Shown here piece after piece: positions 32,695-48,599 of a stretch of DNA of 64,000 bases; position 1 is the stretch's first letter; the number at the start of each line of letters is the position of its first letter. Position numbers and translations under genes: made by a program. Source of the DNA: Myxococcales bacterium (GTDB taxonomy: Bacteria; Myxococcota_A; Polyangia; Polyangiales; Houyiibacteriaceae). A model generated the notes under the pieces. The model was given only the letters and a program-made list of their open reading frames with translations. It was not told where the DNA came from and did not search any database. The stretch covers positions 62,001-126,000 of the forward strand of contig JAOTVB010000004.1 of the NCBI GenBank assembly GCA_029863605.1, in the 5' to 3' direction.

Positions 32695-34443
32695 ATGACT
32701 CGAGAAGCTCCTTGCCAGTATGTTCCCGGCGGTAAGACCAAGCGCGTCCTCTACGTGGGGTCCGGGCTCGATTGTTTCGAGTCGCTCGTCTCCGACATGG
32801 AGCGTGTGCCTGGGGCTGAACGCATGCAGGCCGAGCACTATCCGGTGTTTCGGTACGGTGGAGCCGAGATCGAATGGGTGCCGGTCTGGGACACCGTTGG
32901 CGCGACCGGTGCATTGCGTTCCGCTTATGTGAACCTGTTGGTAATCGACCTTCGGTGGAGTGAAAACTTCGATGCACGTCTCGGGGAGATCCGGGGACTG
33001 TTGAAAGAGCTCGATCACAGCGAGGATGTCGAGCAGCGCTACGGCTTTCACCGCATCGTCGTGCTCATGTCCGGGCCGAACTCCGATCGCATCGACCAGC
33101 TGATCGTCGAGCTCGGTTCCGTCGGCGTTCGTCACGTGCTTCGGCAGGAGTTCTCGCCGCATGCGCCGGCATGGTCGAGCGACATCTCGTTTGCGGAGCG
33201 AGCGCTTCGTCATGCTGCCGAGCTCACTCAATCTCGCAAGATCGGCAAGACCGCGATCTGCGCTTCGGGAGGAGGCATTACCGGCATCTACTTCGAGATG
33301 GGCGTCTTCAAGTGTCTCGACGACTGTTTGATGAACTGCAGCGTCAACGATTTCGACATGCTGTTTGGGATCAGCGCGGGCGCAGTCGTCACGAGCATGC
33401 TTTCCGTGGGGTACACGATCGACGAGGTGATGGCCGCGGTTGCCGGCGTCCCAGGAGGCCGGATGCAGCCCCTCAGTTTCAGTCTCCTGAGACTCTCTCA
33501 CATCAACTATCAAGGCCTTCGCTGGCGATTGATGAGCGCCACGAAGACGGGCTTACATGCCTTCTGGGAGACGCTGCGGGGAAGAGGACGCGATACGGCC
33601 GACAGCCTGTTTCTCGAATACACCAGCCTCGTCGGAGCACCTTTTCACTCGGCCAAATTCGAATTGATGCTACGCGAGGTTCTCGGGGGGAGTGGAAGCA
33701 AGGATGACTTTCGTGCGCTTCCAGTCGAGCTCTACATCGGCGCCTCTGATCAAGATGCTCGGCATCATGTCTTGTTCGGCGCCGAGGGCTATGACCACGT
33801 TCCCATCAGTAAAGCGGTTCGCGCCTCGCTCAGCGTGAACCCTGCTTTTTCATCGGTGCCGATCGACGGGCGTTACTACGAGGATGGCGCGATCACGCGA
33901 ACGTCAAACTTTGGCGAGGCCATCAAGCGGGGTGCGACGTTGATCTTCACCATGGATCCATTCGTGCCTTACGTGTCCAAGTTTCCTGGGGTCGCGCACC
34001 GGCGAGGTGTGCTCTACAACATCGACCAGGACATTCGGACGATTTCGTTCACGAGGTTCGAGCGCGCCCGCAATGCAGTGCTGCGCGAGCATCCCGAGGT
34101 GAGTTCCTATACGTTCCTGCCCTCGAATACGCTCCGCCGGTTGCTTTCGACGAACCCCATGGACCATCGTCCATACCTCGAGATTTGGCGCGGAGCGTAT
34201 CTCTCCTCCCTCCAGCGCATCGACCAGCTTTGCCATCGACTGCGAGGCGACCTGGCCGAGCACGGCATTCAGCTCGATACGACAACCGCCGAGGTCATCG
34301 CCGACCAGCTTCGAACCGCGGCCACCCCGAAATTCGAGGACTTCTTCGTCGACCGGAAGGTCGAGATCAAAAAGCGACCGTTCATGACCCGCTCCGAGCT
34401 CGGATCGCTGCCCGAGACCGCGGAAGTCGATCGCAAGCTCTGA
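32695..34443 (+). CDS. Patatin-like phospholipase with N-terminal receiver-like domain
   Basis: A 582-residue protein. Residues 16-175 look like a Rossmann/receiver-like domain (RVLYVGSGLDCFESLVSD, VNLLVIDLRW with the Asp at the end of strand 3, HRIVVLMSG). From 186 a patatin hydrolase begins: oxyanion motif ASGGGITG at 190-197, nucleophile Ser227 in GISAGA, catalytic Asp397 in DGA. A C-terminal extension of about 170 residues is basic and lacks a known motif. Patatins hydrolyse acyl esters of phospholipids. Expected in the cytosol or at the membrane. The predicted Asp in the first domain might be phosphorylated, which would make this a regulated lipase; this part is inference. Confidence 0.88.
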   Translation: MTREAPCQYVPGGKTKRVLYVGSGLDCFESLVSDMERVPGAERMQAEHYPVFRYGGAEIEWVPVWDTVGATGALRSAYVNLLVIDLRWSENFDARLGEIRGLLKELDHSEDVEQRYGFHRIVVLMSGPNSDRIDQLIVELGSVGVRHVLRQEFSPHAPAWSSDISFAERALRHAAELTQSRKIGKTAICASGGGITGIYFEMGVFKCLDDCLMNCSVNDFDMLFGISAGAVVTSMLSVGYTIDEVMAAVAGVPGGRMQPLSFSLLRLSHINYQGLRWRLMSATKTGLHAFWETLRGRGRDTADSLFLEYTSLVGAPFHSAKFELMLREVLGGSGSKDDFRALPVELYIGASDQDARHHVLFGAEGYDHVPISKAVRASLSVNPAFSSVPIDGRYYEDGAITRTSNFGEAIKRGATLIFTMDPFVPYVSKFPGVAHRRGVLYNIDQDIRTISFTRFERARNAVLREHPEVSSYTFLPSNTLRRLLSTNPMDHRPYLEIWRGAYLSSLQRIDQLCHRLRGDLAEHGIQLDTTTAEVIADQLRTAATPKFEDFFVDRKVEIKKRPFMTRSELGSLPETAEVDRKL

Positions 34444-34968: not shown

Positions 34969-37560
34969 ATGAAAACCGATATGCCTCAGGTTGTTCGTTT
35001 AGGGTTGGCTGCGATCCTCGCATTGGGCGTGGGCGTCACCGGGTGCGGTGATGGCGACGGCGGTACGGGCGGCACCGGTGGCGGCGGTACCGGCGGAGGT
35101 GGCACCGGCGGCATGGGCGGCGGCGGCATGGGGGGCGAAGGCGGCAGTGGCGGTGTGGTTGGCGCCGTGACCGCGACCCCGCCGGGCACCACGTTCAACC
35201 CCACCATCGAGGTGACGTTGAGCACCATGAGCGGCCAGCCGATCTATTACACGACCGATTTGTCGCCCGTCCTCGATGGCGACGGCAACGTGCAGGGCAC
35301 GGAGTACACAGGGCCCATCACCATCGATGGTCAGACGACGGTCTTGAAGTTCCTCACCGGGACCGAAGGCGACTACTCCGCAGAACAGTCGGAGGGCTAT
35401 GTGTTCACTGAAACGCCAATCCGAACGGAGTGGGCCAAGAGCGGGCACGGCGACATCACAGCTGAGCCCTGGCGCCGTTTTGACGACGGCGGCGCGGTCT
35501 CGAATCGATGCGCGAAGTGCCACGGGCCCCAAGGAAACGATGACCCGCCGCCGGACGTGGGCTTGCTCGAATACCTCGCGACGGGCGAAAACACTCTTTC
35601 AGCCCCACTCCCACTCGGTATCGACTGCGTTAACTGCCACCAAACGTTCCCGACGATCTACTCAAACCTGGCGAAATTCGGCCTCCCAAATGGTGAGCTC
35701 GAGCCGGTGGTGTTCCCCTCCACCGAACAGGTTTCCCTTTATGGTCCAAGCAACATCTGCATGACCTGCCACCAGGGCCGCGAGTCCGGCAAGAGCGTGC
35801 AGGACGAGATCGACGCGGACGATGGCGTGGGGCCCTATGAGTTCACCAACATCCACTACTACGCGGCCGCTGCCTCCTTCTTCGGAAGCGAGACTGACGG
35901 TGGGTTCGAGTACGCCGGTCAGTGGTACCGGCCACGGAACACGTTCCCCTCGCACCCCGACACGTTCTCGACCTGCGTCGGCTGCCATATGACCAACGCC
36001 GAGGGCGGCGAGATGCACACGTGGATCCCGGCCGTCGACAGTTGCATCAGCTGCCACGGCGGCACGAGCTTCGAGACGCTCGGCGGCACGCCCGGTCAGA
36101 GCTACACCAACATCCAGGCCCTGCTGCCCGAGCTCTACTCCGAGATCCAGGATTACGCGGCCACTGTGATCGGCGTGCCCATCGTGTACGACGGCCGATT
36201 CTGCAACGACAATGGAGAGCCGTGCGGGCGCAGCAACAGCTATGAAGATTTCGATGCGAAGCTTCTGCCGGCCGCCTACAACTACCAGGTCGCCCTGAAG
36301 GATCCCAACGGCTTCATCCACAACGGGACCTATATCCAGCAGCTCCTCCACGACTCGATCGTGGACCTCGGCGGCACGCCCTCGGTGGCGGTGATCGGTC
36401 GCGGTGAGCTAACCATCGAGGGAACGGACATTGGCATGGTTTCGAAGACGCAGCAGTGGCAGCTCAGCGCACACGCTGCAGCGGACACCCCGCCATTCCG
36501 TGAGTGGGACAACACATATCTGCCGGACGGGTACACCCCGCGCGGCATCCAGTCACCCTCAGGCGAACCGGTACCGGGCGTCAGCAGTTGCACGAGGTGC
36601 CACAGCACCCCCGGCTTCGAGGAGTACGCCATGAGCAACCCGACGACCGTGCATTTCCCCACGACGACTGTGGACTGTTGGTCGTGTCACAACAACAACG
36701 ACCTCTTCGCCAACTCGGAGACTCGGTACGACGTTCTAGGGACCAACACGGCTCTCGCGTCGATCGTGTTCCCGTCCGGCGACGAAGCCTCGTTCGGCAA
36801 TGCCAGCAACATCTGCATGGGCTGCCACCAAGGTCAGAACTCAACCGTCCAGGTGGACGCCGCGACGCCGAATACGGTCATGCAAGCCCCGACGGACTAC
36901 GACTCCTACGACTTCATCAACATCCACTACTACGCGGCGGCGGCGACGCTCTTCGGCACCGACGTCCGGGGCGGTTACGAGTACGGCGGCAACGTGTATC
37001 GCGGACAGAACATGTTCGTGGGTCTCCACAACCCAACGCCGGATGGCCAGACGCTGGTCGACTGCATCGGCTGCCACCTGAACGGAGCCGTCGATCCCGC
37101 GGACAGGCAGAGGCACACCTTCCTGCCGCAGGTCCAGGACTGCAATCAGTGCCACAGCGGCCAGGCGTTCCAGGACTTGAGTGGATCCCCGGGCGACAAC
37201 TTCCGCGAGATCGACATCTTGAAGGAGGATCTGCTCGCGGCAATCCAGGCCTACGCCACCACCGGCAATCCCCTCACTGGGCTGCCTCAGGACTCCCCAG
37301 TTTTCTACAACGGCGACACTTACCCGTACTGGTTCAACGGGATCGAAGGCATGGACCCTGCTAGCTACCCGAACCGGTATCGGGACTTCGACTTCGACAT
37401 GCTGACCGCGGCCTACAACTTCGTGACGGCCGACAAGGATCCGGCCGGGTACATTCATAACGGCGGCTACATCCAGCAGCTCTTGTTCGACTCGATCTGC
37501 CTGATGGGTGGCACCCCGCGTGTGGTGACCGTTCCGAGTCGCCCGACGTCCTGCCCGTAG
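34969..37560 (+). CDS. Decahaem c-type cytochrome lipoprotein with duplicated five-haem module
   Basis: An 863-residue outer-surface candidate. The lipobox VTGC (Cys26) is followed by about 40 residues of Gly/Thr/Met linker. Residues 70-150 (VTATPPGTTFNPTIEVTLS, GQPIYYTTD) resemble the chitobiase C-terminal (CHB_HEX_C) beta domain. Ten CxxCH motifs follow: CAKCH, CVNCH, CMTCH, CVGCH, CISCH, then CTRCH, CWSCH, CMGCH, CIGCH, CNQCH. The second five repeat the first in order and context, each half ending in DP.GFIHNG.YIQQLL type text. This is a clear internal duplication. It begins the plus-strand cytochrome operon and is the best candidate for the cell-surface electron outlet. Confidence 0.93.
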   Translation: MKTDMPQVVRLGLAAILALGVGVTGCGDGDGGTGGTGGGGTGGGGTGGMGGGGMGGEGGSGGVVGAVTATPPGTTFNPTIEVTLSTMSGQPIYYTTDLSPVLDGDGNVQGTEYTGPITIDGQTTVLKFLTGTEGDYSAEQSEGYVFTETPIRTEWAKSGHGDITAEPWRRFDDGGAVSNRCAKCHGPQGNDDPPPDVGLLEYLATGENTLSAPLPLGIDCVNCHQTFPTIYSNLAKFGLPNGELEPVVFPSTEQVSLYGPSNICMTCHQGRESGKSVQDEIDADDGVGPYEFTNIHYYAAAASFFGSETDGGFEYAGQWYRPRNTFPSHPDTFSTCVGCHMTNAEGGEMHTWIPAVDSCISCHGGTSFETLGGTPGQSYTNIQALLPELYSEIQDYAATVIGVPIVYDGRFCNDNGEPCGRSNSYEDFDAKLLPAAYNYQVALKDPNGFIHNGTYIQQLLHDSIVDLGGTPSVAVIGRGELTIEGTDIGMVSKTQQWQLSAHAAADTPPFREWDNTYLPDGYTPRGIQSPSGEPVPGVSSCTRCHSTPGFEEYAMSNPTTVHFPTTTVDCWSCHNNNDLFANSETRYDVLGTNTALASIVFPSGDEASFGNASNICMGCHQGQNSTVQVDAATPNTVMQAPTDYDSYDFINIHYYAAAATLFGTDVRGGYEYGGNVYRGQNMFVGLHNPTPDGQTLVDCIGCHLNGAVDPADRQRHTFLPQVQDCNQCHSGQAFQDLSGSPGDNFREIDILKEDLLAAIQAYATTGNPLTGLPQDSPVFYNGDTYPYWFNGIEGMDPASYPNRYRDFDFDMLTAAYNFVTADKDPAGYIHNGGYIQQLLFDSICLMGGTPRVVTVPSRPTSCP

Positions 37561-37640
37561 CCTGTTAGCCCAGGCTGCGCGAAACAGCCAAAACAGCAAT
37601 CCGGGGCACGTCTTCGCTTGAAGGCGCGCCCCGGTTGTCT

Positions 37641-39710
37641 ATGATCGACTCGATGCTCTCGTTTCGACGTGCTCCTTGGCTTTGGCTCGTTGTTGGTGCG
37701 TTGTCGCTGCAGGTCGCGTGCAAAGGAGACACCGGGGAGCAAGGCCCCCAGGGGCCGCCTGGAGAACCCGGCCCCCCCGGGGAGACGCCGGGGCCGGACA
37801 TCGACCCCGAACCCTTCGGTTTGGTCGGCCGGATCATGGAGCCAAACATGGTACCGGTTCCGAGCGGAACAGTGTACCTCGTTCCGGCAAGCGATGTAGA
37901 CGAGCTCTCACAAACGCCAATCGATCTCTTCTTGTCACCGGAAGAGACCGAGGCGCTCGAGATCGACGAGCCGATTGAAGACTTGCTCGACACGAACGGC
38001 GATAGCTACGAACAAGCAGAAGTCGACGCGGACGGGGTCTACCGCTTCGAGACGCTTCCCGAGGGAAGCCACTTCGTCGTGTGGGCTCCCGCGGCTGACG
38101 ATACCCAGCACTTGCCCGGCGGTGACGGCAGCAGGGTGTCATTCACCAGAGAGTCGCTGATCGGCATGCAAATGAACCTCCACGTGAGCCCACGGCCAAG
38201 CCCAGCGGCGACCTACGTGGGCTCCTCGACGTGTATGGTGTGCCACGGCCTCCACAGCACGACGCGCACCGCACACAGCGTGGGGCTTCAAGTGCCCGGG
38301 GTGCGCTCGATTCTGCAAGACATCGAGCCGTGGCCGGGCTTCGATGACGCGCTCTCCGCGTTCGATACGAACTCGACGACGCTCTACTACTACGATTGCG
38401 ACGATGCGACCCTCAACCCCGCAAAGTGCAGTGTCGACGATGAGCTCCCGTCCGGTGTCGTCGCCTTCACGATCAACCTGCGTCGCGACCTTGGCAAACC
38501 GCTTGGCGAGGTCGGAGCGTATTACATCGAGATGGTGAACGGCACGACGGAACGGTACGACGTCGTTCTCACCTATGGCGGCGCGTTGGAAAGGCAGCAG
38601 TACCTCACGCGGCGGACGAATGCGGACGGAAGCTTCAGCTATTTCGTCTTGCCTGTGCAGTACAACTACCAGGGGGATTTCTCGAATCCGGACTCGGATG
38701 ACTGGCCGTGGAAGGACTACCGCTCGGACCTCTGGTACGACTTCGGCTCGGGTACGCTTCGCCAGCCCGACAACTCGGATTCGTTCGACAACAACTGTGC
38801 CGGCTGTCACTTCACCGGTTACCGACTCGAAGGAAGCGACGTGGACGGTTGGTCCGCACAGGCGATCGTCGACCCCGTAGGGGCCTTCGATTACAACGGC
38901 GATGGCAAGCCCGAGCTCATCAACACCGGCTGCGAGGCCTGCCATGGACCGGGCTCTGAGCATTTGGAGCTGAGCCCGCGCAGCAGCTACATCGTTTCGC
39001 CAGGATTGCTCACCCCGGGCCGCCAGGCTGTAATTTGCGGACGTTGCCATTCGCGGCCGCTCGGCATCGGTGCCGGCATGACGGGGCTGCCGCTCTCCGT
39101 GGACAACGAGATGCCGCCAGTGGGAATTCGCCGTCGCGACTTCGCCCCGCTCTACACAACGCGCGTCAGTGGCGCGCCCGAAGACTTCTTCGCCTCGGGC
39201 GACCCGAGGGCAGACTATCAGCAGTACTCCGACCACATTCGGGCGAGGCACTATCGGAATCCCGTCCGGCTCACCACTTGCACTGGGTGCCACAATCCGC
39301 ATGTCAACTCGGCCGACGTCGCCGAGATGGACACGTCCGGCAACCCCAATGCGGTGTGCACCACGTGCCACAGCCCGGAGGCCAACCCGGAGCTCTATCC
39401 AGTGGCCGCTCACGCCGCGACCGTCACGGGCGTTGCCGGGCACGCGAGCTTGGAAGAGTTCTTTGGGCCGTACCTCTGCACCCAGTGTCACATGGTGCCG
39501 ACGGCCCGGTCCGGTGCTGCCGTTCGAGCCTTGGTCGATGCAATCGGTGCGCCGCCGACGGTGCAATACTACTGGAACGATATCGCAAACCATCGCATGA
39601 CCGTGACCCGCTGGGAAGAGGCCGAGGGACAGCCGAGCCAGCCCATCGCCTTCACCAACGAGTGCGGTCAGTGCCACGCAGAAGTTCTTCCGAACACTCC
39701 GACGCCATGA
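37641..39710 (+). CDS. Octahaem c-type cytochrome with collagen-like stalk
   Basis: A 689-residue protein from the ATG at 37641. The signal sequence ends at Cys27 (LQVAC, an atypical but plausible lipobox). Residues 29-50 are a Gly-X-Y collagen-like run (GEQGPQGPPGEPGPPGE), followed by a carboxypeptidase-regulatory-like beta domain (FGLVGRIMEPNMVPVPSGTV, YRFETLPEGSHFVVW). Eight haem sites follow: CMVCH, CAGCH, CEACH, CGRCH, CTGCH, CTTCH, CTQCH, CGQCH. The arrangement of CEACHGPGSEHL and the later pairs recalls octahaem reductase-like cytochromes. Its stop overlaps the start of the next cytochrome gene by 4 bp, so the two are translationally coupled. Confidence 0.93.
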   Translation: MIDSMLSFRRAPWLWLVVGALSLQVACKGDTGEQGPQGPPGEPGPPGETPGPDIDPEPFGLVGRIMEPNMVPVPSGTVYLVPASDVDELSQTPIDLFLSPEETEALEIDEPIEDLLDTNGDSYEQAEVDADGVYRFETLPEGSHFVVWAPAADDTQHLPGGDGSRVSFTRESLIGMQMNLHVSPRPSPAATYVGSSTCMVCHGLHSTTRTAHSVGLQVPGVRSILQDIEPWPGFDDALSAFDTNSTTLYYYDCDDATLNPAKCSVDDELPSGVVAFTINLRRDLGKPLGEVGAYYIEMVNGTTERYDVVLTYGGALERQQYLTRRTNADGSFSYFVLPVQYNYQGDFSNPDSDDWPWKDYRSDLWYDFGSGTLRQPDNSDSFDNNCAGCHFTGYRLEGSDVDGWSAQAIVDPVGAFDYNGDGKPELINTGCEACHGPGSEHLELSPRSSYIVSPGLLTPGRQAVICGRCHSRPLGIGAGMTGLPLSVDNEMPPVGIRRRDFAPLYTTRVSGAPEDFFASGDPRADYQQYSDHIRARHYRNPVRLTTCTGCHNPHVNSADVAEMDTSGNPNAVCTTCHSPEANPELYPVAAHAATVTGVAGHASLEEFFGPYLCTQCHMVPTARSGAAVRALVDAIGAPPTVQYYWNDIANHRMTVTRWEEAEGQPSQPIAFTNECGQCHAEVLPNTPTP

Positions 39711-40762
39711 CCGTTGGGGCACACCGGCGTTGGGTTGCCGGGCTCGTGTGGGCAAGCCTCGTGCTCCTTGGCTGCAACGAGGTGCGCAACCGGGAGGAGC
39801 CGCCGGTCGTCTTCACCGACATCGATCCGATCCTGCAGGAGGGTTGCGTCGACTGTCACAGCGGTTCGGTGCCCGCTGCGGGTTATTCGGTCGAGGACTA
39901 CCTCGAAACGATCCGTTGTGTCCCCGACGGGCGACCGGCAACGCTGCCGCCGGACGCGACCGCTCCGATTCTGGCGGTGCTCGCCAGGCCTGATCACGCA
40001 GATTTGCTCGACGCGAGCCAAGCCGATGGGCTCACGGCATGGGTCGTCGAGGGGGCGTGGCCGGCCCGACGCGGCTCGCATCCGGGGCAATGGCTCGATC
40101 CCCGGACTGACGCCTGGCATGGGACGTATCTTGAGGAAACGGACTGGCAGGGCATCGTCGACCCCACGAGGGGCGACGCCTGCGGGCTCTGTCACCCAGG
40201 CTCTCCCGCGCCCGTTCCTGGAATTACCAGCTACGCGCCCGGCGCCACCGATTGCACGGATTGCCATGACTTGCCTGGTGGGGTGATGGCCTGCGGGACG
40301 TGCCACGGCGATGGCCTCAGACCCTATCCGCCACGCGATCCATGCTATTTCCCCGGCCCACCCTTTGGTGGCGCACACAAGACGCATACCGAGCCCTCCG
40401 CCAACATGCCCAATCCCCTCGGCTGCCAGTCGTGTCACTTCGGCGAGGACTACGCGATGCTCGAAGGGGGACACGGAAATGGCGAGGTCAACGTGATCTT
40501 CCAGCCCGCCTGGGGCCCTGATGCGACCTATGACTCCGAAACCCGTGTGTGCGCCACAACGTGTCACGTGCGTGGTGGAATGATGCCAGTCGTGGCCTGG
40601 GACGAGGCGGGGCTGAACCTGGACTGCAACAGCTGCCACCTCAATCCTCCGCCGGGTCACGCGACGATCGCCTGCAACGGCTGTCATCGGGGCATCAACC
40701 CAGAGGGCACGCGGTTGACGATCGAAGCGCCCCACATCAACGGCCGCGTCGATGCGTTCTGA
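39707..40762 (+). CDS. Multihaem lipoprotein with CX3CH variant (7+1 haem motifs)
   Basis: A 351-residue lipoprotein (LLGC, Cys23) starting at the ATG at 39707, which overlaps the previous stop (ATGA). The first site, in a FTDIDPILQEGCVDCHSG block, is of the surface-lipoprotein haem type; then CGLCH, CTDCH, CGTCH, CQSCH, CATTCH, CNSCH and CNGCH. The sixth has three residues between the cysteines, a spacing known in a few Geobacter-type cytochromes. HTEPSANMPN and GGHGNGEVNV hold possible distal His ligands. The upstream in-frame extension to 39035 is only the other frame of the octahaem gene. Likely an exported electron carrier or surface cytochrome. Confidence 0.92.
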   Translation: MTVGAHRRWVAGLVWASLVLLGCNEVRNREEPPVVFTDIDPILQEGCVDCHSGSVPAAGYSVEDYLETIRCVPDGRPATLPPDATAPILAVLARPDHADLLDASQADGLTAWVVEGAWPARRGSHPGQWLDPRTDAWHGTYLEETDWQGIVDPTRGDACGLCHPGSPAPVPGITSYAPGATDCTDCHDLPGGVMACGTCHGDGLRPYPPRDPCYFPGPPFGGAHKTHTEPSANMPNPLGCQSCHFGEDYAMLEGGHGNGEVNVIFQPAWGPDATYDSETRVCATTCHVRGGMMPVVAWDEAGLNLDCNSCHLNPPPGHATIACNGCHRGINPEGTRLTIEAPHINGRVDAF

Positions 40763-40807: not shown

Positions 40808-41245
40808 ATGAAGCGGCTGCTCGATCGACGCACAATTTTGAACTGGTTTGTTGGCGGAAGCACGTTCGCCTGGCTTGGTTCCGTGCTCCACCCGGTGGTG
40901 CGTTTCCTGATGCCACCCCCCGAGCAGGAAGCGGCAGTCTCTGCCGTGAAGGCGGCATCGCTGACTGAGATGGCGCCCAACTCCGGGAAGATCTTCAAGT
41001 TCGGCCGCAAGCCAGCGCTGATCGTGCGCCGGGTCGACGGCAGCTTTGCCGCGTTCCTCGCTAAATGCACGCACCTCGATTGCGTCGTGCAATACCGCCC
41101 AGACAAAGAGCGGATCTGGTGCGCGTGCCATGACGGGTTTTACGACCTCAACGGGACCAATGTGGCGGGTCCACCACCAAGGCCCTTGGACGCCTTAGAG
41201 GTGCACACGAAGGGGGACGATGTCTACGTCACCCGAAAATCCTGA
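40808..41245 (+). CDS. Rieske [2Fe-2S] protein
   Basis: A 145-residue Rieske protein with an N-terminal twin-hydrophobic anchor (ILNWFVGGSTFAWLGSVL, preceded by RR at 7-8). Cluster ligands are Cys87 and His89 in CTHLDC and Cys105 and His108 in CACHDG; Cys92 and Cys107 can form the disulphide of high-potential clusters. Length is that of small bc1/b6f-type Rieske subunits. The gene starts 45 bp after the multihaem gene and its last 26 bp overlap the cytochrome b gene, so the two subunits are coupled. It would receive electrons from quinol at the Qo site and hand them to a c-type partner; none of the usual cytochrome c1/f genes is present. Confidence 0.95.
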   Translation: MKRLLDRRTILNWFVGGSTFAWLGSVLHPVVRFLMPPPEQEAAVSAVKAASLTEMAPNSGKIFKFGRKPALIVRRVDGSFAAFLAKCTHLDCVVQYRPDKERIWCACHDGFYDLNGTNVAGPPPRPLDALEVHTKGDDVYVTRKS

Positions 41246-42305
41246 GCGCGCGCTTCTTGCCTGGCTCAAGGACCGCTACCCCGTCGCGCAGTTCGTCGAG
41301 TGGGCCGAACACAAGACGGTTCCGGTCGGTCGGGGCGCGTTTTGGTACTATTTCGGTGGAATCACCCTCTTCTTGTTCCTCATTCAGGTGGGGACAGGGA
41401 TCCTCTTGATGTTCTACTACAAGGGGAGCGCCGATACCGCGTTTGCAAGCGTCCGATTCATTTCTGCCAAAGTGCCATTTGGCTGGCTCGTTCGCTCAAT
41501 CCACGCGTGGGCGGCAAACCTGATGATCTTTTCGGTGTTTATTCACATGTTTAGCGTGTTCTTCATGCGGGCCTATCGTAAGCCGCGTGAGCTCACTTGG
41601 CTCTCAGGAATCGTGCTCCTCGCGCTTCTGCTTGGCTTCGGGTTCAGCGGGTATCTCTTGCCGTGGAACGAGCTCGCCTTCTTCGCGACGAAGGTGGGGA
41701 CCGACATCATCGGGGTCATCCCAGTCATCGGTGAGCCCATCATGTACGTGTTACGTGGTGGGGAGGAGGTGACGGGATCGACGCTCCCTCGGTTCTTTGC
41801 GCTTCACGTGGCGCTGTTTCCGGCCTTGCTGACCCTCTTCATGGCGGCCCATCTCTTCTTCATCCAACTCCAGGGGATTCACGAGCCCGATGCGTGGAAA
41901 ACTCAGCCAGAGCAACGGAAGACCATGCCGTTCTTCCCGCACTTCTTCATGCGCGAGCTTCTGCTGTGGTTGATCACGTTTAACATCTTGGCAGTGTTGG
42001 CGGTCTTCTCCCCGGCGGAGTTGGGCGTCGAGGCCGATCCGTTTTCCCCGGCTCCAGCCGGCATCAAACCGGAGTGGTACTTCCTGAGTACGTTCGAGTT
42101 TCTCAAGTACATGCCCGCTCACATAGGCCCGCTCGAGGGAGAAGAGTTCGGGCTATTGATCATTTCGCTCGGCTTCCTCCTGTGGTGCTTGGTTCCATGG
42201 ATCGACCGCGGGCGCAGTCGCACGATGACAACCGTCGTCATGGTCGGCGGTATGGCGATCCTCGTGTTTCTCACGATCCTGACCTATCTGGGGTACGTCG
42301 CGTGA
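41220..42305 (+). CDS. Cytochrome b (quinol oxidase-type, bc complex)
   Basis: A 361-residue integral membrane protein with about eight helices. Four haem-ligating His are visible: His95 and His109 in helix B (SIHAWAANLMIFSVFIHM), His196 and His211 in helix D (FFALHVALFPALL, MAAHLFFIQ). The 14/15 residue spacing is of the b6/menaquinol type. The Qo-site signature PEWY is at 284-287. It overlaps the Rieske gene by 26 bp and shares one base with the following nonahaem gene (TGATG). It is fused in one chain, not split as in b6f. This is the quinol-oxidising core of the electron-transfer system. Confidence 0.96.
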   Translation: MSTSPENPERALLAWLKDRYPVAQFVEWAEHKTVPVGRGAFWYYFGGITLFLFLIQVGTGILLMFYYKGSADTAFASVRFISAKVPFGWLVRSIHAWAANLMIFSVFIHMFSVFFMRAYRKPRELTWLSGIVLLALLLGFGFSGYLLPWNELAFFATKVGTDIIGVIPVIGEPIMYVLRGGEEVTGSTLPRFFALHVALFPALLTLFMAAHLFFIQLQGIHEPDAWKTQPEQRKTMPFFPHFFMRELLLWLITFNILAVLAVFSPAELGVEADPFSPAPAGIKPEWYFLSTFEFLKYMPAHIGPLEGEEFGLLIISLGFLLWCLVPWIDRGRSRTMTTVVMVGGMAILVFLTILTYLGYVA

Positions 42306-43546
42306 TGAAAGGCTTCGTGACAGCACTCCTCCTAGCCTGTGTAGCGCTAACCTCGAGGGTCAAGGCTGACGATCTGTCCGGAGGCGAGTGTCTCGAGTGT
42401 CATCTCGAGATTGAAGACCCCATCACCGAGCTCTGGAAGGATGATGTTCACGCCCACGCGGGAATCGGATGCGACGGATGTCACGGTGGAGATTCCACGA
42501 AGGACGATAGTGAGCTCGCCAAACGTTCGGGATCGGGTTATCGAGGCCAGTTTACGCCTCGCCAGATCGTGTTGTCCTGTGGCGGCTGCCACGCCGACAT
42601 CGAATACATGAAAGCCCGAAAGCCGCTTCTGTCCGTCGATCAGCTCGAGAAGTATTGGACGAGCCAGCACGGAAAACTCCTGGCCAAAGGGGAGACCCGC
42701 GTAGCTCAATGCGTGAGTTGCCACGGGGCGCATGGGGTTCGCGAAGTCAACGATCCAAAGTCGCCCGTCTACGCAGCGAACGTTCCCGCCACGTGTGCAC
42801 ACTGTCACGCCGATGCGGAGTACATGAGCGAATTCGACATCGCTACAAACCAGTACGACGAGTACGCTCAGAGCGTCCACGGAAAAGCCCTCCTAGAGAA
42901 GAACGATGTTCGCGGGGCGCCGGCCTGCAACGACTGCCACGGAAACCACGGGGCCGCGCCGCCCTCGATAGACGCGATCACCAACATCTGTGGGACTTGC
43001 CACAGCTACAACGCCGAGCTCTTTCTAGGGAGCCCGCTAGCGCCGGGTTTCAAAGAAAAATCGCTGGCCGACTGTGTTGCTTGCCACGGCAAACACCTCA
43101 TCACACACGCGTCCGACGACTGGCTCGAGGACGAGCCTGGCGGCGCGTGTAGGAAGTGCCACGAAACGGGCGACGAGGGATCTGATCTCGCCCTCTACTA
43201 CGCCGACACGCTCGGTTCGATTCGACAATCATTCGACGAGATCGACGAGTTGCTCGCCCGAGCCGAGGTGAAGGGCATGGACGTCACCGAAGGTGAGGAT
43301 TACGAGCAGGCAGCCCGGCAGGGTCTCCTTCAGGCTCGCACGTTGATTCACGCGTTCTCGAAGCCCGTGATGGAGGAAAAAGTCACCGATATCGCGCAAA
43401 ACCAAGCCGCCGCATTGGAGGTGGGGTATGCACAGCTCAAAGCTTTCGACGACCGCCGCCGTGGGCTTGCCATCAGCACGTTGTTACTACTTCTTCTTAC
43501 CATCGGCGTGGCGATCAAGATCCGCACACTGCCCCCGTTGGAATAA
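42305..43546 (+). CDS. Nonahaem c-type cytochrome with C-terminal membrane anchor
   Basis: A 413-residue protein with a cleavable signal (MKGFVTALLLACVALTSRVKA in two blocks, cleavage near residue 21), nine CxxCH motifs (CLECH, CDGCH, CGGCH, CVSCH, CAHCH, CNDCH, CGTCH, CVACH, CRKCH) within the first 300 residues, then a helical region and a C-terminal membrane helix (STLLLLLLTIGVAIKI). The haem head should face the periplasm and the tail anchor it beside cytochrome b. The start shares one base with the cytochrome b stop. It probably takes the place of cytochrome c1, passing electrons from Rieske onward. This combination of Rieske, b and nonahaem subunits is the inner-membrane module. Confidence 0.94.
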   Translation: MKGFVTALLLACVALTSRVKADDLSGGECLECHLEIEDPITELWKDDVHAHAGIGCDGCHGGDSTKDDSELAKRSGSGYRGQFTPRQIVLSCGGCHADIEYMKARKPLLSVDQLEKYWTSQHGKLLAKGETRVAQCVSCHGAHGVREVNDPKSPVYAANVPATCAHCHADAEYMSEFDIATNQYDEYAQSVHGKALLEKNDVRGAPACNDCHGNHGAAPPSIDAITNICGTCHSYNAELFLGSPLAPGFKEKSLADCVACHGKHLITHASDDWLEDEPGGACRKCHETGDEGSDLALYYADTLGSIRQSFDEIDELLARAEVKGMDVTEGEDYEQAARQGLLQARTLIHAFSKPVMEEKVTDIAQNQAAALEVGYAQLKAFDDRRRGLAISTLLLLLLTIGVAIKIRTLPPLE

Positions 43547-44035: not shown

Positions 44036-45550
44036 TCACCGTCCACTGACGAAGGTGTGACAGCCGGTGCATCGCTTCGCGTCAGGCTCGTGGTTGGCGA
44101 TGTCCTCATGGCAGGCCATGCACGTCGCGCGGTCGGCCCGAGCCCGACGAGCGTGAATGTCGTGACACGCTGCGCACTCGGTATGACCCTCACCTTGCGG
44201 CTCATCAGCAATGCGATGGAGGCCGGGCAACTTCGCGATTTGGTGGCAGCTTGTGCAGGTGGTGTCCGCGGTTGCGGCGCCGCGGTGGGGCTCGTGGCAT
44301 GAAGCGCAGTCACGGTGACCCTCGGGGCTGTTTGTGAGTTGCTCTTCGTGACAGCTCGCGCATGCCAGGGGAGGGGACAGTTGATGCACAGACCCACCAT
44401 GACACGACTCGCAACTAGAATGGCCCTCATTTCGGCTAGTTAGGCGTACCTGTTTCGCATGGCATCGCACGCATAGAGCCCGTTCTTCGAGGCCGCTCAA
44501 GTCAAAGCGGTGGGGTCGGTGGCAGTCGGTACACTCGGTCTTGGGCGAGTGGAATGCTCTTTCGGAGTGCGCCTCATCGTGGCAGTCGGTGCACCGGTGG
44601 GCCAGCTGAGCGACGCGTTTGGGGTGAGGATCGTGGCATGAAACGCATTCGGTCTTGGCACCGACGGCGGGATGCGTCGATGAAACGTCCGAGTGGCACT
44701 TTGCACATGAGCGCTCCGCCGGAGCTCGCACAGCGTGAGGCTGATGGCAGCTTGCGCAATCGCGATGTGCTCGAGCCTTGTTTTGTGCGAGGACTTGCGT
44801 TTTCTTGTGGCATGTGGCGCACCGCAGGGCGGTGGACGACGAGAACGAGTGTGCTTGATGGCAGGTCGCGCACGATTCGTGGCCACCGTCAAAGGTTGCC
44901 GTCAGCGAAACCATCGGTTCGCGTGTCTCGTGGCACTGCATGCAGGCTGCCGCCTCGGAGGCGAGCTGGTGGCCCCCATGGCAGTCGGCGCAAGTACCGC
45001 TGAGCCGGGGCCGCCCGTGCTGGACTTTCATCTTCTGGTGGCATTCGTCGCATTCCAGAACGGTTTCTTCGATTGGTTTGTGTGGGTTGTGACACGTTTC
45101 GCAAGGCACTGACGTATGGATCGCCAGGCCCGGATTGCCTTCCGTTTCGAAAGGCCCGTGGCAGCGCGTGCAATGCCACCGCCCAAAGACATCGGGCTCC
45201 GGTTTGAAGACATGGCACTTGTAACAGTCCATTGGCATGCCATCGAGATCGACATGCACGAGAGAGACCTGTTCCTCATGGCACTTCGTACAGACACCTA
45301 TATCCGGAGCGTCGAAGGTGGGTTTGTTGGGGTCGTGGCATTCGTCGCACTTCACCTCTTGGTTGGCCACGTGTCTCGAATGCCCCGGCGAACGACGCAC
45401 TTGTTGCCAACTTTCGGGCACTGTCCGTGGCGGAGGTTCGCCTCGCGTTGTCTTGATCTCTTGAACGTCGCTTGTGAATCTAACGGCCAAGAACCCAGCG
45501 ATGAATCCAATTACCGCGAACACGATGATTGCGATCAGGGCGCGTTTCAT
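44036..45550 (-). CDS. 23-haem c-type cytochrome, N-terminally membrane-anchored
   Basis: A 504-residue protein with an uncleaved-looking N-terminal helix (residues 3-27, RALIAIIVFAVIGFIAGFLA) and 23 CxxCH motifs in about 440 residues, one per 19-20 residues. Many are in pairs with the shape C..CH-x-PH, for instance DCASCHQPH, ECVSCHDPH, ECTDCHRPH, DCASCHEPH, suggesting repeated duplication of a two-haem unit. Numerous extra His supply distal ligands. The charged residue content is high and the anchor should place the chain in the periplasm, where it could span to the outer membrane as a wire. The ATG overlaps the stop of the 13-haem gene by 4 bp (45547-45550). Confidence 0.95.
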   Translation of the reverse strand: MKRALIAIIVFAVIGFIAGFLAVRFTSDVQEIKTTRGEPPPRTVPESWQQVRRSPGHSRHVANQEVKCDECHDPNKPTFDAPDIGVCTKCHEEQVSLVHVDLDGMPMDCYKCHVFKPEPDVFGRWHCTRCHGPFETEGNPGLAIHTSVPCETCHNPHKPIEETVLECDECHQKMKVQHGRPRLSGTCADCHGGHQLASEAAACMQCHETREPMVSLTATFDGGHESCATCHQAHSFSSSTALRCATCHKKTQVLAQNKARAHRDCASCHQPHAVRAPAERSCAKCHSDVSSTHPAVGAKTECVSCHDPHPKRVAQLAHRCTDCHDEAHSERAFHSPKTECTDCHRPHRFDLSGLEERALCVRCHAKQVRLTSRNEGHSSCESCHGGSVHQLSPPLACASCHEEQLTNSPEGHRDCASCHEPHRGAATADTTCTSCHQIAKLPGLHRIADEPQGEGHTECAACHDIHARRARADRATCMACHEDIANHEPDAKRCTGCHTFVSGR

Positions 45551-46608
45551 AAGTTACCCAAATGACACAAGCGACACGGAAGATCGTTGATGATGTCGAG
45601 TCGGCTACTGAAGTTCGCCGGGTGGGGGTTGCCACCTGGGCCACCGACCCGGTGGCAACCTACGCAAAGCATTTCACCTGCGCCGCCGTGGCAGCTCGCG
45701 CATCCGACAGGGTCTAGCCGGGCGGCTGGCCCGTGATCGTTCGAACTACCTGGCGGCCCCGACCACCCCGGAGGATGAGGATTTCCCCGTGCCGCATCGA
45801 TGCCGGCGATACCTTCGCGCGTGTGACAGTCGACACAGAACAGCTCGCTGTGGCAGATGACGCACATGCCCGGTTCGGCTGCTGCTTGCATGTCGTGAAC
45901 CGAAAAGAAGTTCGCTCGATGCATCGACTGTCGCATCGGCGAATCGAAGGCGAGCCTAGACGGAATCGCCGCCACGGTGATCCCGTGGCAGGCCGCGCAT
46001 TCACGTTGGGTGTGGCAGGTGGTGCATAGGTCTGCTTGGGCAGCGGCCTGCACTCCATGCTCGCGAAGGAAGTCACCGTCGTGGACCACGTGGCTCTCCG
46101 GCAGGGCGCCCTCGGATGCGAGCTCGACGTGACAGCTGTCACAATCACGCGCATCCCATTGGCCTGCGTGCTCGTGGCAACTGAAGCAGGTGGCCATGTT
46201 AGGCCGAAGGGCCGCGTCCTCGTGGCGCACGTCCACGTGGCAACGCACGCAGTCCCCGGCGCCGGCCTCGTCGTGACCGGCATGCGAAAAGACCAGATGC
46301 TTCCGCGCCATTTCCGCGGCGTGTCGGGTGCGCGCGCGCCCATGGCAGTCCGAGCAGGTGTTCGGATCGTGCGGATCTTGGTGGCACTCGACGCACTGTT
46401 GCGTCGTCGGAAGGTGTAGGGGCCCCGTTTCCTCAGCGTCTTGGATACCAGCGTGGCACTCGAGGCAGTTGATCCCCTCGAGGACGTGTGCGCGATGCTC
46501 GAAGGGGCCGTCCTGGGGGTCCTTTTCGATGCCGAGCATCTTGGCGCAGGCTCCCGAGAAGCCGGCGAGGGCGACGAATGCAACGACAGCGATGAGCCTC
46601 CTGGTCAT
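45547..46608 (-). CDS. 13-haem c-type cytochrome lipoprotein
   Basis: A 353-residue protein from the ATG at 46608, which overlaps the stop of the beta-barrel gene (ATGA). A signal with lipobox SGAC (Cys21) precedes 13 CxxCH motifs: CLECH, CVECH, CSDCH, CVRCH, CFSCH, CDSCH, CTTCH, CAACH, CVICH, CVDCH, CASCH, CVGCH, CRLCH. The FEHRAHVLEGINCLECH opening with its distal His is typical of periplasmic or outer-membrane multihaem proteins of porin-cytochrome conduits. With the barrel gene before it and the 23-haem gene after it, all overlapping, it is the likely cytochrome that plugs the pore. Confidence 0.94.
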   Translation of the reverse strand: MTRRLIAVVAFVALAGFSGACAKMLGIEKDPQDGPFEHRAHVLEGINCLECHAGIQDAEETGPLHLPTTQQCVECHQDPHDPNTCSDCHGRARTRHAAEMARKHLVFSHAGHDEAGAGDCVRCHVDVRHEDAALRPNMATCFSCHEHAGQWDARDCDSCHVELASEGALPESHVVHDGDFLREHGVQAAAQADLCTTCHTQRECAACHGITVAAIPSRLAFDSPMRQSMHRANFFSVHDMQAAAEPGMCVICHSELFCVDCHTREGIAGIDAARGNPHPPGWSGPPGSSNDHGPAARLDPVGCASCHGGAGEMLCVGCHRVGGPGGNPHPANFSSRLDIINDLPCRLCHLGNL

Positions 46609-47927
46609 TTCTTCGGCCACTCCGCTTGATAAGAGACGCGCGCCAGTGCGCGAACTTCGTACCTCTGGACTTGGTTGGCGCTAGCTTCGCACGCGGCCGC
46701 AATCGCCCAGCTCTTGCCCGGCTGCCAGCGAAGCGCAAGCCGTCCCCAAGGCCAGACCGAGCCTTGGCCCGGGTCGGGGTCGTCGGGAAAGACGATCTCG
46801 AACTCAGGCATCAGACCCACCGTCGTATCGATGTCCTCGTAGAGGGGAATCACGGCGGCAAGTCGGATCCCCGTCCATTGAGACACCGAAACCGACTGGC
46901 GCTTGAGCTCGCCGAGGATGCTTCCCTTGCCCTCGTCGTCGGTGCGAAGCACGCCGCGGAGGTAGCCGCTCCAGCCATATTGGTCTTCGGCGTTCATCAC
47001 CGCGCCGTTCACCCACAAGTCGAGCCTTGGAGCCGCCCTCCATCGCAGATTTGCGCCGGTCTGCAAAGTCCCTGGGTCGCCGAGGACGGTGAAGAGGGAG
47101 GTCGCTTGGAGCATGCGAATTGGAGAGCGTTTGGTCACGTAAAGCTCGCCGCGAATCGCTCGATCCTTGGTCTGTGCCGAGATCGTGCCGAGGACTTCGG
47201 CAAGGCCGGGGTTCACCAACTCCCAGGAAACCTTGGCCGCCACGTCGAGCCAGTGCGCGACACGCAGCGAGAAGTCCCCGCCGACCTCTTCATCCGACCG
47301 TTGGCCGGCGTTGAAGCGATTGTAATACGAAGCGCCGACCACCCCTCGCTTTCCGAGCCCCTGCGAAAGGCGCCCACCGACCATCCAGTCGTACTTGCGA
47401 CCCTCGATGTTCCCATCGACCGGCACGCCGCCGAAAACCTCGAAATGCGTCTTCGATCGGGCGCGCAGGGTGATGTGACCGCCGTCGATGTGCATGGCGC
47501 GGACCGAGCCGGTTGCCAGAATGAAGCGCCCGAGGCGCGTATCGCTGATCCCTTTCGGGTCCCGAACCTTGATCGCGATCACGAGGGCCTGGATCTCCGC
47601 GCTGTCGTCGAAACCAAACTGTGACGCTCCAATGCCGCCCCAGATCATCGCCTCGGCGTCGACGTAGGGATACTTGCGTGTCGAGCCCTCCAAGATGATC
47701 AGCCCGTAGTTCGGGTTCGCTTGCCCCCAAAGCTCAGCCCCGACCCGATGCGGTTGCGCTCGAGCGCTCGTGGCGGAAAGACAAGACCACGCAAAAATCG
47801 CAGCGAGGGCAAGACCGGCACGGCTGGCGATCGAACGGATCTTCTGGCTTGCGCGAGGCCCTGATCTTGGCCCATGTTCTCTCTGGTTCGACCGCTCGGA
47901 TAGCGGCGAGCTCAGCACCCCATGCAT
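46605..47927 (-). CDS. Outer-membrane beta-barrel (porin-like) protein of the conduit
   Basis: About 440 residues from the ATG at 47927 (GTG 47918 is possible). A long basic n-region precedes a hydrophobic signal core ending in SATSARA-QP. The mature part is made of alternating amphipathic strands with aromatic girdles (VGAELWGQANPNYGLIILEG, DFSLRVAHWLDVAAKVSWEL, LDLWVNGAVMNAEDQYGWSG) and ends in VRALARVSYQAEWPKK, a weak C-terminal strand. There is no haem motif. Size is close to the roughly 400-residue barrels of Geobacter porin-cytochrome complexes, not the larger MtrB/PioB. Its stop overlaps the 13-haem start. The 5-prime end overlaps the divergent NapC-like gene by 6 bp, so the true start may be a little later. 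Confidence 0.75.
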   Translation of the reverse strand: MHGVLSSPLSERSNQREHGPRSGPRASQKIRSIASRAGLALAAIFAWSCLSATSARAQPHRVGAELWGQANPNYGLIILEGSTRKYPYVDAEAMIWGGIGASQFGFDDSAEIQALVIAIKVRDPKGISDTRLGRFILATGSVRAMHIDGGHITLRARSKTHFEVFGGVPVDGNIEGRKYDWMVGGRLSQGLGKRGVVGASYYNRFNAGQRSDEEVGGDFSLRVAHWLDVAAKVSWELVNPGLAEVLGTISAQTKDRAIRGELYVTKRSPIRMLQATSLFTVLGDPGTLQTGANLRWRAAPRLDLWVNGAVMNAEDQYGWSGYLRGVLRTDDEGKGSILGELKRQSVSVSQWTGIRLAAVIPLYEDIDTTVGLMPEFEIVFPDDPDPGQGSVWPWGRLALRWQPGKSWAIAAACEASANQVQRYEVRALARVSYQAEWPKK

Positions 47928-48599
47928 GTATCGCCACTGGCTTGGATCGCCCTCACCTGCGCCGTCGTCGCTGCAGTCATCATGCTGTTGTACCTGGTGT
48001 ACCGGCCGCCGCTCGACGGGAAGACCAAAGGGTTTCTCGCGCTTGGGCTCGGTGTTCTGCCGATCATGACTGCCCTGATCGGCAACGTGGAAGGCCTCCG
48101 TGCGACTGAGCACCAAGCCTTTTGTGGCAGCTGCCACACGATGGATTTCCACATCGCCGATGCGAACGACCCCGATAGCATGGGGCTCGCGGCGATCCAT
48201 TCGCGCACGAAGATGTTCGGGGATCGAAGCTGTTATGTCTGTCACAAGGACTACGGGATGTACGGCTACACGCTGACCAAGCTCGGGGGCATGGGGCACG
48301 TCTATTACTTCCTGACGGACTATGCCTGGGAGGACGCCCACGAATCTCTTCCGAGAGTCCACATCGCCAGGCCGTTTCGAAATGACAATTGCATGCAGTG
48401 CCATAGCACCAGCGGGAGGATCTGGAACGGCGTTCCGGACCATCAAGGGCTCCTCGAGGACCTTCGGGCGGGCCAGACGAGTTGCGCCAGCGCCGGCTGT
48501 CATGGGTACGCGCATCCCTTCAGCAAGCCACCCGAAGACGAAACAGAGCCGGCCGAGGCGCGGTTGGACCCGGGCGTGAAGGCACCGGAGGGCACATGA
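47922..48599 (+). CDS. NapC/NirT-type membrane tetrahaem cytochrome (3 CxxCH + CX4CH)
   Basis: A 225-residue protein with an N-terminal membrane helix (residues 6-27) and a second hydrophobic stretch near 38-57, then CGSCH at about 65, CYVCH, CMQCH and a variant CASAGCH. The FCGSCHTM block, where Met can be the haem ligand, is the NapC/NirT family hallmark; these proteins take electrons from menaquinol and pass them to periplasmic cytochromes. It lies divergently from the barrel/13-haem/23-haem genes and overlaps the small membrane gene by 4 bp. The start at ATG 47922 lies 6 bp inside the predicted start of the barrel gene, so one of the two is probably shorter. Confidence 0.9.
   Translation: MHVSPLAWIALTCAVVAAVIMLLYLVYRPPLDGKTKGFLALGLGVLPIMTALIGNVEGLRATEHQAFCGSCHTMDFHIADANDPDSMGLAAIHSRTKMFGDRSCYVCHKDYGMYGYTLTKLGGMGHVYYFLTDYAWEDAHESLPRVHIARPFRNDNCMQCHSTSGRIWNGVPDHQGLLEDLRAGQTSCASAGCHGYAHPFSKPPEDETEPAEARLDPGVKAPEGT

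Follow-up and report, generated by a model that had tools for sequence, protein, structure and literature searches.

The stretch of Myxococcales DNA analysed here (64,000 nucleotides, referred to as the window; contig JAOTVB010000004.1, positions 62,001 to 126,000) encodes a giant c-type cytochrome with 23 haem-binding motifs. The protein is real, well conserved and follows a clear modular rule. It likely forms the periplasmic part, anchored in the inner membrane, of a trans-envelope conduit for extracellular electron transfer. The gene was found on the minus strand at 44036-45550, with an ATG start and 504 codons followed by a stop; over this region, the plus strand lacked a long ORF in that register. 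All 23 CxxCH motifs reported in the first-pass annotation were recovered at exactly these coordinates, with 46 of 46 cysteines located inside motifs. Shuffled proteins of the same composition showed a mean of 0.4 CxxCH and a maximum of three. The first haem lies at residue 68 and motifs are spaced by 16-27 residues, corresponding to 21.9 residues per haem overall (504/23) and 19.0 counted from the first haem. Published PCC3 cytochromes hold 22-39 residues per haem (PMC5566968), which agrees with the initial impression of a density near the densest known.

Across the locus, 75 c-type haems are encoded. The following genes were annotated:

34969..37560, plus strand: 10-haem (5+5) lipoprotein-like cytochrome, weakly similar to OmcA/MtrC
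37635..39710, plus strand: 8-haem cytochrome with a lipobox-like signal and a collagen-like linker
39707..40762, plus strand: lipoprotein-like 8-haem cytochrome (7 CxxCH and 1 CX3CH)
40808..41245, plus strand: Rieske iron-sulphur protein with an N-terminal anchor
41220..42305, plus strand: cytochrome b (b6/petB type)
42305..43546, plus strand: 9-haem cytochrome with a signal peptide and a membrane helix at the C-terminus; the gene converges on the 23-haem gene
44036..45550, minus strand: 23-haem c-type cytochrome with an N-terminal single-helix anchor (residues about 4-24)
45547..46608, minus strand: 13-haem cytochrome and predicted lipoprotein (MTRRLIAVVAFVALAGFSGAC); the stop codon TGA shares an ATGA with the start codon ATG of the 23-haem gene
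46605..47918, minus strand: predicted outer-membrane beta-barrel with a signal peptide, about 385 amino acids when mature; the stop codon TGA runs into the start codon ATG of the 13-haem gene
47922..48599, plus strand: NapC/NirT-like tetrahaem membrane cytochrome (3 CxxCH and 1 CX4CH), divergent

Barrel, 13-haem and 23-haem genes form an operon coupled by ATGA overlaps, in which the 23-haem gene is last. Opposite to it runs the operon of the Rieske, cytochrome b and 9-haem genes, together with the three genes for lipoprotein-like cytochromes. The lipobox cysteine of the 13-haem protein was invariant in all 16 aligned homologues. The barrel was conserved over 18 homologues with 32-79% identity and had no relative in Pfam or the PDB. 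Its identity as a beta-barrel is predicted from the signal peptide, the size and the alternation of residues; the alternation patterns, with 32 overlapping segments, overcount the strands. The start codon of the barrel gene is uncertain, GTG 47918 or ATG 47927, and translation may instead begin at a rare codon located more internally. Both candidates (47918-47927) overlap with the first codons of the divergent NapC-like gene (47922). The product of the latter was affiliated with PF03264 at 30 bits (cut-off 24.1), carries an N-terminal membrane helix and four haems, and was the sole PF03264 match in the genome. Within the 10-haem cytochrome at 34969-37560, two similar five-haem halves were recognised. 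A patatin/phospholipase-like protein with a weak match to PADLOC phospholipase effectors is encoded at 32695-34443. A promoter and terminator scan of the locus gave no signal clearly above chance.

The possibility that an assembly frameshift had merged two cytochromes, raised in the first-pass annotation, was ruled out because five further genomes of this genus (L025-L029) carry an intact single ORF with 23 haems, at 62-70% identity; in L025, the 3' side extends into masked sequence. A sixth orthologue from the genus (L002/L044) showed 92% identity over the part present and was cut by the contig end. Compared with this nearest species (L002), nucleotide identity is 84-91% in the first half of the gene and 93-99% in the second, as if part of the gene had recently been exchanged. 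Within the phylum, the giant cytochrome gene was detected in 29 of 379 genomes (E < 1e-25). Distant matches in Phycisphaerae, Parahaliea and Zixiibacteria were dropped, as whole-genome rescoring did not confirm them. Other orders of the phylum contain the same cassette, with genes for the NapC-like protein, the barrel, the 13-haem cytochrome and a giant cytochrome. The 13-haem gene occurred in 64 of 284 genomes (E < 1e-20), so that the giant cytochrome seems to have been added to a pair of barrel and 12/13-haem cytochrome that is distributed more widely. In two genomes of the genus (L072 and L073), the Rieske, cytochrome b and 9-haem genes that otherwise separate the 23-haem gene from the lipoprotein cytochromes are missing.

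Internal repetition was analysed by comparing the flanks of the motifs for each haem lag, leaving out the cysteines and histidines of the motifs. In the 23-haem protein, the mean flank score was high at lags 2, 4, 6 and 8 and low at odd lags, and none of 20,000 shuffles of the haem order matched this contrast. Over 28 family members, z-scores were +12.4 at lag 2, +9.5 at lag 4, +10.9 at lag 6 and +9.2 at lag 8, with values of -6 to -7 at odd lags. From haem 5 onward, C-x-x-CH-x-x-H motifs alternate with plain CxxCH, with one exception. The C-x-x-CH-x-PH blocks described earlier are one version of the C-x-x-CH-x-x-H form. Haem numbers in 29 family members, counted as CX2-4CH (CX2CH, CX3CH and CX4CH), were 23 (seven members), 25 (seven), 27 (fourteen) and 29 (one). 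Counting plain CxxCH gave mixed parity in relatives (22, 24 and 26), which is explained by CX3CH or CX4CH in aligned slots that are CxxCH in other members. In the alignment of the 29 members, 21 haem slots were occupied in every row and the variable slots occurred pairwise: 8-9, 11-12, 19-20, 21-22 and 25-26. All indels in the family comprised whole two-haem blocks. On a tree calculated from the shared columns, the haem number shifts at least six times, an approximate count given that some branches are weak and several rows long. The 29-haem member holds three head-to-tail units, of which neighbours are 52-55% identical. Together, the even-lag periodicity, the paired-slot indels and the repeats of the 29-haem member support duplication and loss of whole two-haem modules. 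The earlier proposal of growth by a two-haem unit was thus strongly supported: self-alignment gave a strong periodicity with a period of two haems, and orthologues with other haem numbers were found.

Further to the 23 motif histidines, the protein contains 26 histidines outside the motifs. Of these, 22 were conserved in 90% or more of 18 diverse members and a further one in 16 of the 18. With 23 conserved non-motif histidines for 23 haems, all haems are predicted to be bis-His coordinated, as in MtrA and cytochrome c3. Pfam models matched the protein with 70 bits for Cytochrom_c3_2 (cut-off 25) and 68 bits for Cytochrome_C7 (cut-off 24.8), and judged by its sequence, with paired CxxCH motifs, it is assigned to the cytochrome c3/c7/MtrA superfamily. 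The family profile retrieved the 16-haem HmcA (E 5e-17) and 6r2q_A, which we take to be MtrA (E 2e-13), from the PDB, as well as MtrF and the 12-haem 3ov0, presumably GSU1996. The MtrA/DmsE decahaem model TIGR03508 reached 33.5 bits, below its cut-off of 192.2.

The N-terminal inner-membrane helix proposed in the first-pass annotation was supported for this genus, but not for the family as a whole. The Kyte-Doolittle maximum over 19 residues was 3.03 at residues 5-23, with a best value of 0.41 elsewhere in the protein. The helix has a positive N-flank and no second hydrophobic segment was present. AlphaFold gave a single helix at 2-31 with a pLDDT of about 80 for residues 1-20, the sole confident part of the model; calculated from two-row alignments, the models had a pLDDT of 35 for the 23-haem protein and 28 for the barrel, and apart from this helix the folds were unusable. 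Within the genus, the helix is continuous, lacks a lipobox and shows no clear AxA site. In 14 of the 29 family members (L030-L033, L037, L038, L042, L043, L062, L063, L066-L069), a lipobox cysteine replaces the helix, so the anchor type is not fixed across the family; it switches at least six times on the family tree. None of these lipobox orthologues has Lys+2, the mark of inner-membrane lipoproteins in Myxococcus xanthus (PMC3222651), and their N-terminus may therefore sit at the outer membrane. Repeated swaps with a helix that is confined to the inner membrane argue for one membrane, whereas the Lys+2 sorting rule argues against this.

A longer family of Myxococcota cytochromes with 33-34 haems was also observed (L040, L041, L074-L079). 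Its self-similarity is strongest at lag 4, which may point to a super-unit of four haems. After the helix, these relatives start with a NapC-like F-C-x-x-CH, with a Pfam match below the cut-off. In five loci (L041, L074, L076, L077 and L078), the 34-haem relative directly follows the Rieske, cytochrome b and 9-haem genes. This position links the family to the quinol side; its link to the outer membrane comes from the cassette.

For the likely conduit, the following path is proposed. The N-terminal helix would lie in the inner membrane, N-in and C-out, and the 480-residue periplasmic chain would fold into a string of the c3/MtrA type in which the 23 bis-His haems make up an N-terminal part with four haems, repeated two-haem units and a cap with one haem. 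From the quinol pool, electrons could enter via the Rieske/cytochrome b/9-haem complex, the tetrahaem NapC-like protein or both, join the chain near its anchor and travel along its length. The 13-haem lipoprotein, seated in the beta-barrel of the outer membrane, would take them over next, and the lipoprotein cytochromes outside (10, 8 and 8 haems) would serve as the exit. MtrA carries 10 haems across 80 Å (PMC7198977), by which measure 23 stacked haems with 22 steps would extend over roughly 200 Å, the order of the periplasm. The linear stacking of about 20 nm thus presupposes an MtrA-like arrangement, and the span, the contact partners, the loading with haem and the outward direction are likewise inferred. 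Electrons may also move in the opposite direction, as uptake. The periplasm-spanning wire suggested at the outset is plausible from the haem count and the gene context.

The extreme haem density would also suit a capacitor, a membrane-tethered reservoir whose 23 redox centres buffer respiration against a fluctuating supply of acceptors without touching both membranes, and electron storage has also been proposed for PCC3 cytochromes (PMC10734462). Since the gene is tightly coupled to the barrel and the 13-haem lipoprotein and relatives are coupled to Rieske/cytochrome b, which indicates a two-ended path, storage as the main function seems unlikely; storage and conduction are, however, compatible with each other. 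A different placement, with the N-terminus at the outer membrane or the chain exposed on the surface as a long extracellular cytochrome, would account for the many orthologues with a lipobox cysteine and no Lys+2, and giant extracellular cytochromes do occur in PCC3 clusters. We regard it as quite unlikely, because the helix of this genus is continuous, with no lipobox or clear AxA site, an N-terminal helix that is not cleaved stays in the inner membrane, and the 33-34-haem relatives have a helix before their NapC-like start. The adjoining NapC-like gene would fit a periplasmic electron donor to a reductase, for example of a nitrogen or sulphur compound, outside extracellular electron transfer. 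No coupled periplasmic reductase was present and the surrounding genes encode a barrel and several lipoprotein cytochromes, making this function very improbable.

Whether electrons cross the roughly 20 nm between the membranes of Gram-negative bacteria by small shuttles or by one long wire is unsettled. The 23-haem protein belongs to a natural length series with 23, 25, 27 and 29 haems in two-haem steps and the group with 33-34 haems, and PCC3 offers a second, differently built series with 18, 21 and 24 haems in three-haem steps. The single-wire idea becomes directly testable if haem number tracks the width of the periplasm, and likewise if deletion of modules stops conduction below a threshold length. 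The locus also supplies a complete candidate pathway with 75 haems in a phylum where such pathways have been little described. A wider interpretation is that Myxococcota evolved their own inner-membrane-anchored, periplasm-spanning wires of two-haem modules, separate from PCC3 of the Proteobacteria, with the module number tuning the reach and helix and lipid anchors being swappable. It is offered tentatively, as a possibility that we lean somewhat against.

Among known systems, MtrA/DmsE with MtrB shares the c3-like superfamily (MtrA profile E 2e-13), a bis-His chain and a partner barrel gene. With its 10 haems, MtrA is enclosed by a 26-strand barrel, whereas the 23-haem protein is membrane-anchored, and the likely partner of the barrel here is the 13-haem lipoprotein instead. 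In this respect, the locus resembles the Pcc clusters of Anaeromyxobacter, which belongs to the same phylum; compared by their published layout, these clusters encode a porin-like protein and a 12-haem periplasmic cytochrome of about 340 amino acids, giving the same two-gene arrangement of barrel and 12/13-haem cytochrome, but no giant anchored cytochrome is described in them (Shi et al. 2014, PMC4245776). Inner-membrane multihaem cytochromes of the CbcL/MtrH/MtoC family have 3-23 CX2CH (PMC6295460), so 23 haems on an inner-membrane protein have a precedent. That family carries a six-helix b-type cytochrome domain, whereas the 23-haem protein has one N-terminal helix and no b-haem domain.

Among the giant cytochromes that serve porin-cytochrome systems in the periplasm, that of PCC3 is the closest counterpart. 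Like the 23-haem protein, the periplasmic cytochrome of PCC3 is giant, dense and repetitive, with 21-27 haems reported; its gene lies beside a porin and other multihaem cytochromes, and a span of the periplasm has been proposed (PMC5566968, PMC10734462). For comparison, 17 PCC3 loci (L100-L116) were reached via weak matches among 369 genomes of the class of the gammaproteobacterium Parahaliea (L004). They were recognised by an inner-membrane protein with two WX3HX13H motifs, a periplasmic cytochrome and a second, often larger cytochrome. The two-WX3HX13H protein was present in 16 loci; the remaining locus reaches a contig edge on that side. Their periplasmic cytochromes held 18 (two loci), 21 (eleven) or 24 (four) haems, all multiples of three. 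Self-similarity peaked accordingly, with z-scores of +23.6, +19.2 and +15.1 at lags 3, 6 and 9, and alignment gaps comprised three or six slots. The haem numbers 21, 24 and 27 in a 2023 survey of Gallionellaceae fit this three-haem rule (PMC10734462), which is a feature found in the present analysis and lies outside the published PCC3 definition. Neither the two-haem nor the three-haem rule was found stated in the literature searched, subscription journals excluded.

Several differences separate the 23-haem protein from PCC3. Sequence similarity is weak (E 4e-8 to 7e-5, 25-33%), and the unit comprises three haems in PCC3 (18/21/24) but two in the 23-haem family (23/25/27/29). The inner-membrane partner in PCC3 is a protein of about 300 amino acids with five helices and two WX3HX13H motifs, whereas no ORF within the window has two such motifs. 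The PCC3 porin is very large, with up to 42 transmembrane segments, for which the barrel here, with about 385 amino acids, is too short. PCC3 examples have AxA-like sites and an apparently cleavable signal peptide, whereas the 23-haem protein has a helix with no clear AxA site that probably remains as an anchor; its partner set of a small barrel and a 13-haem lipoprotein also differs. The 23-haem protein is thus not a member of PCC3, but it probably works like a PCC3 cytochrome, and the two families seem to have similar functions but to be composed of different modules.
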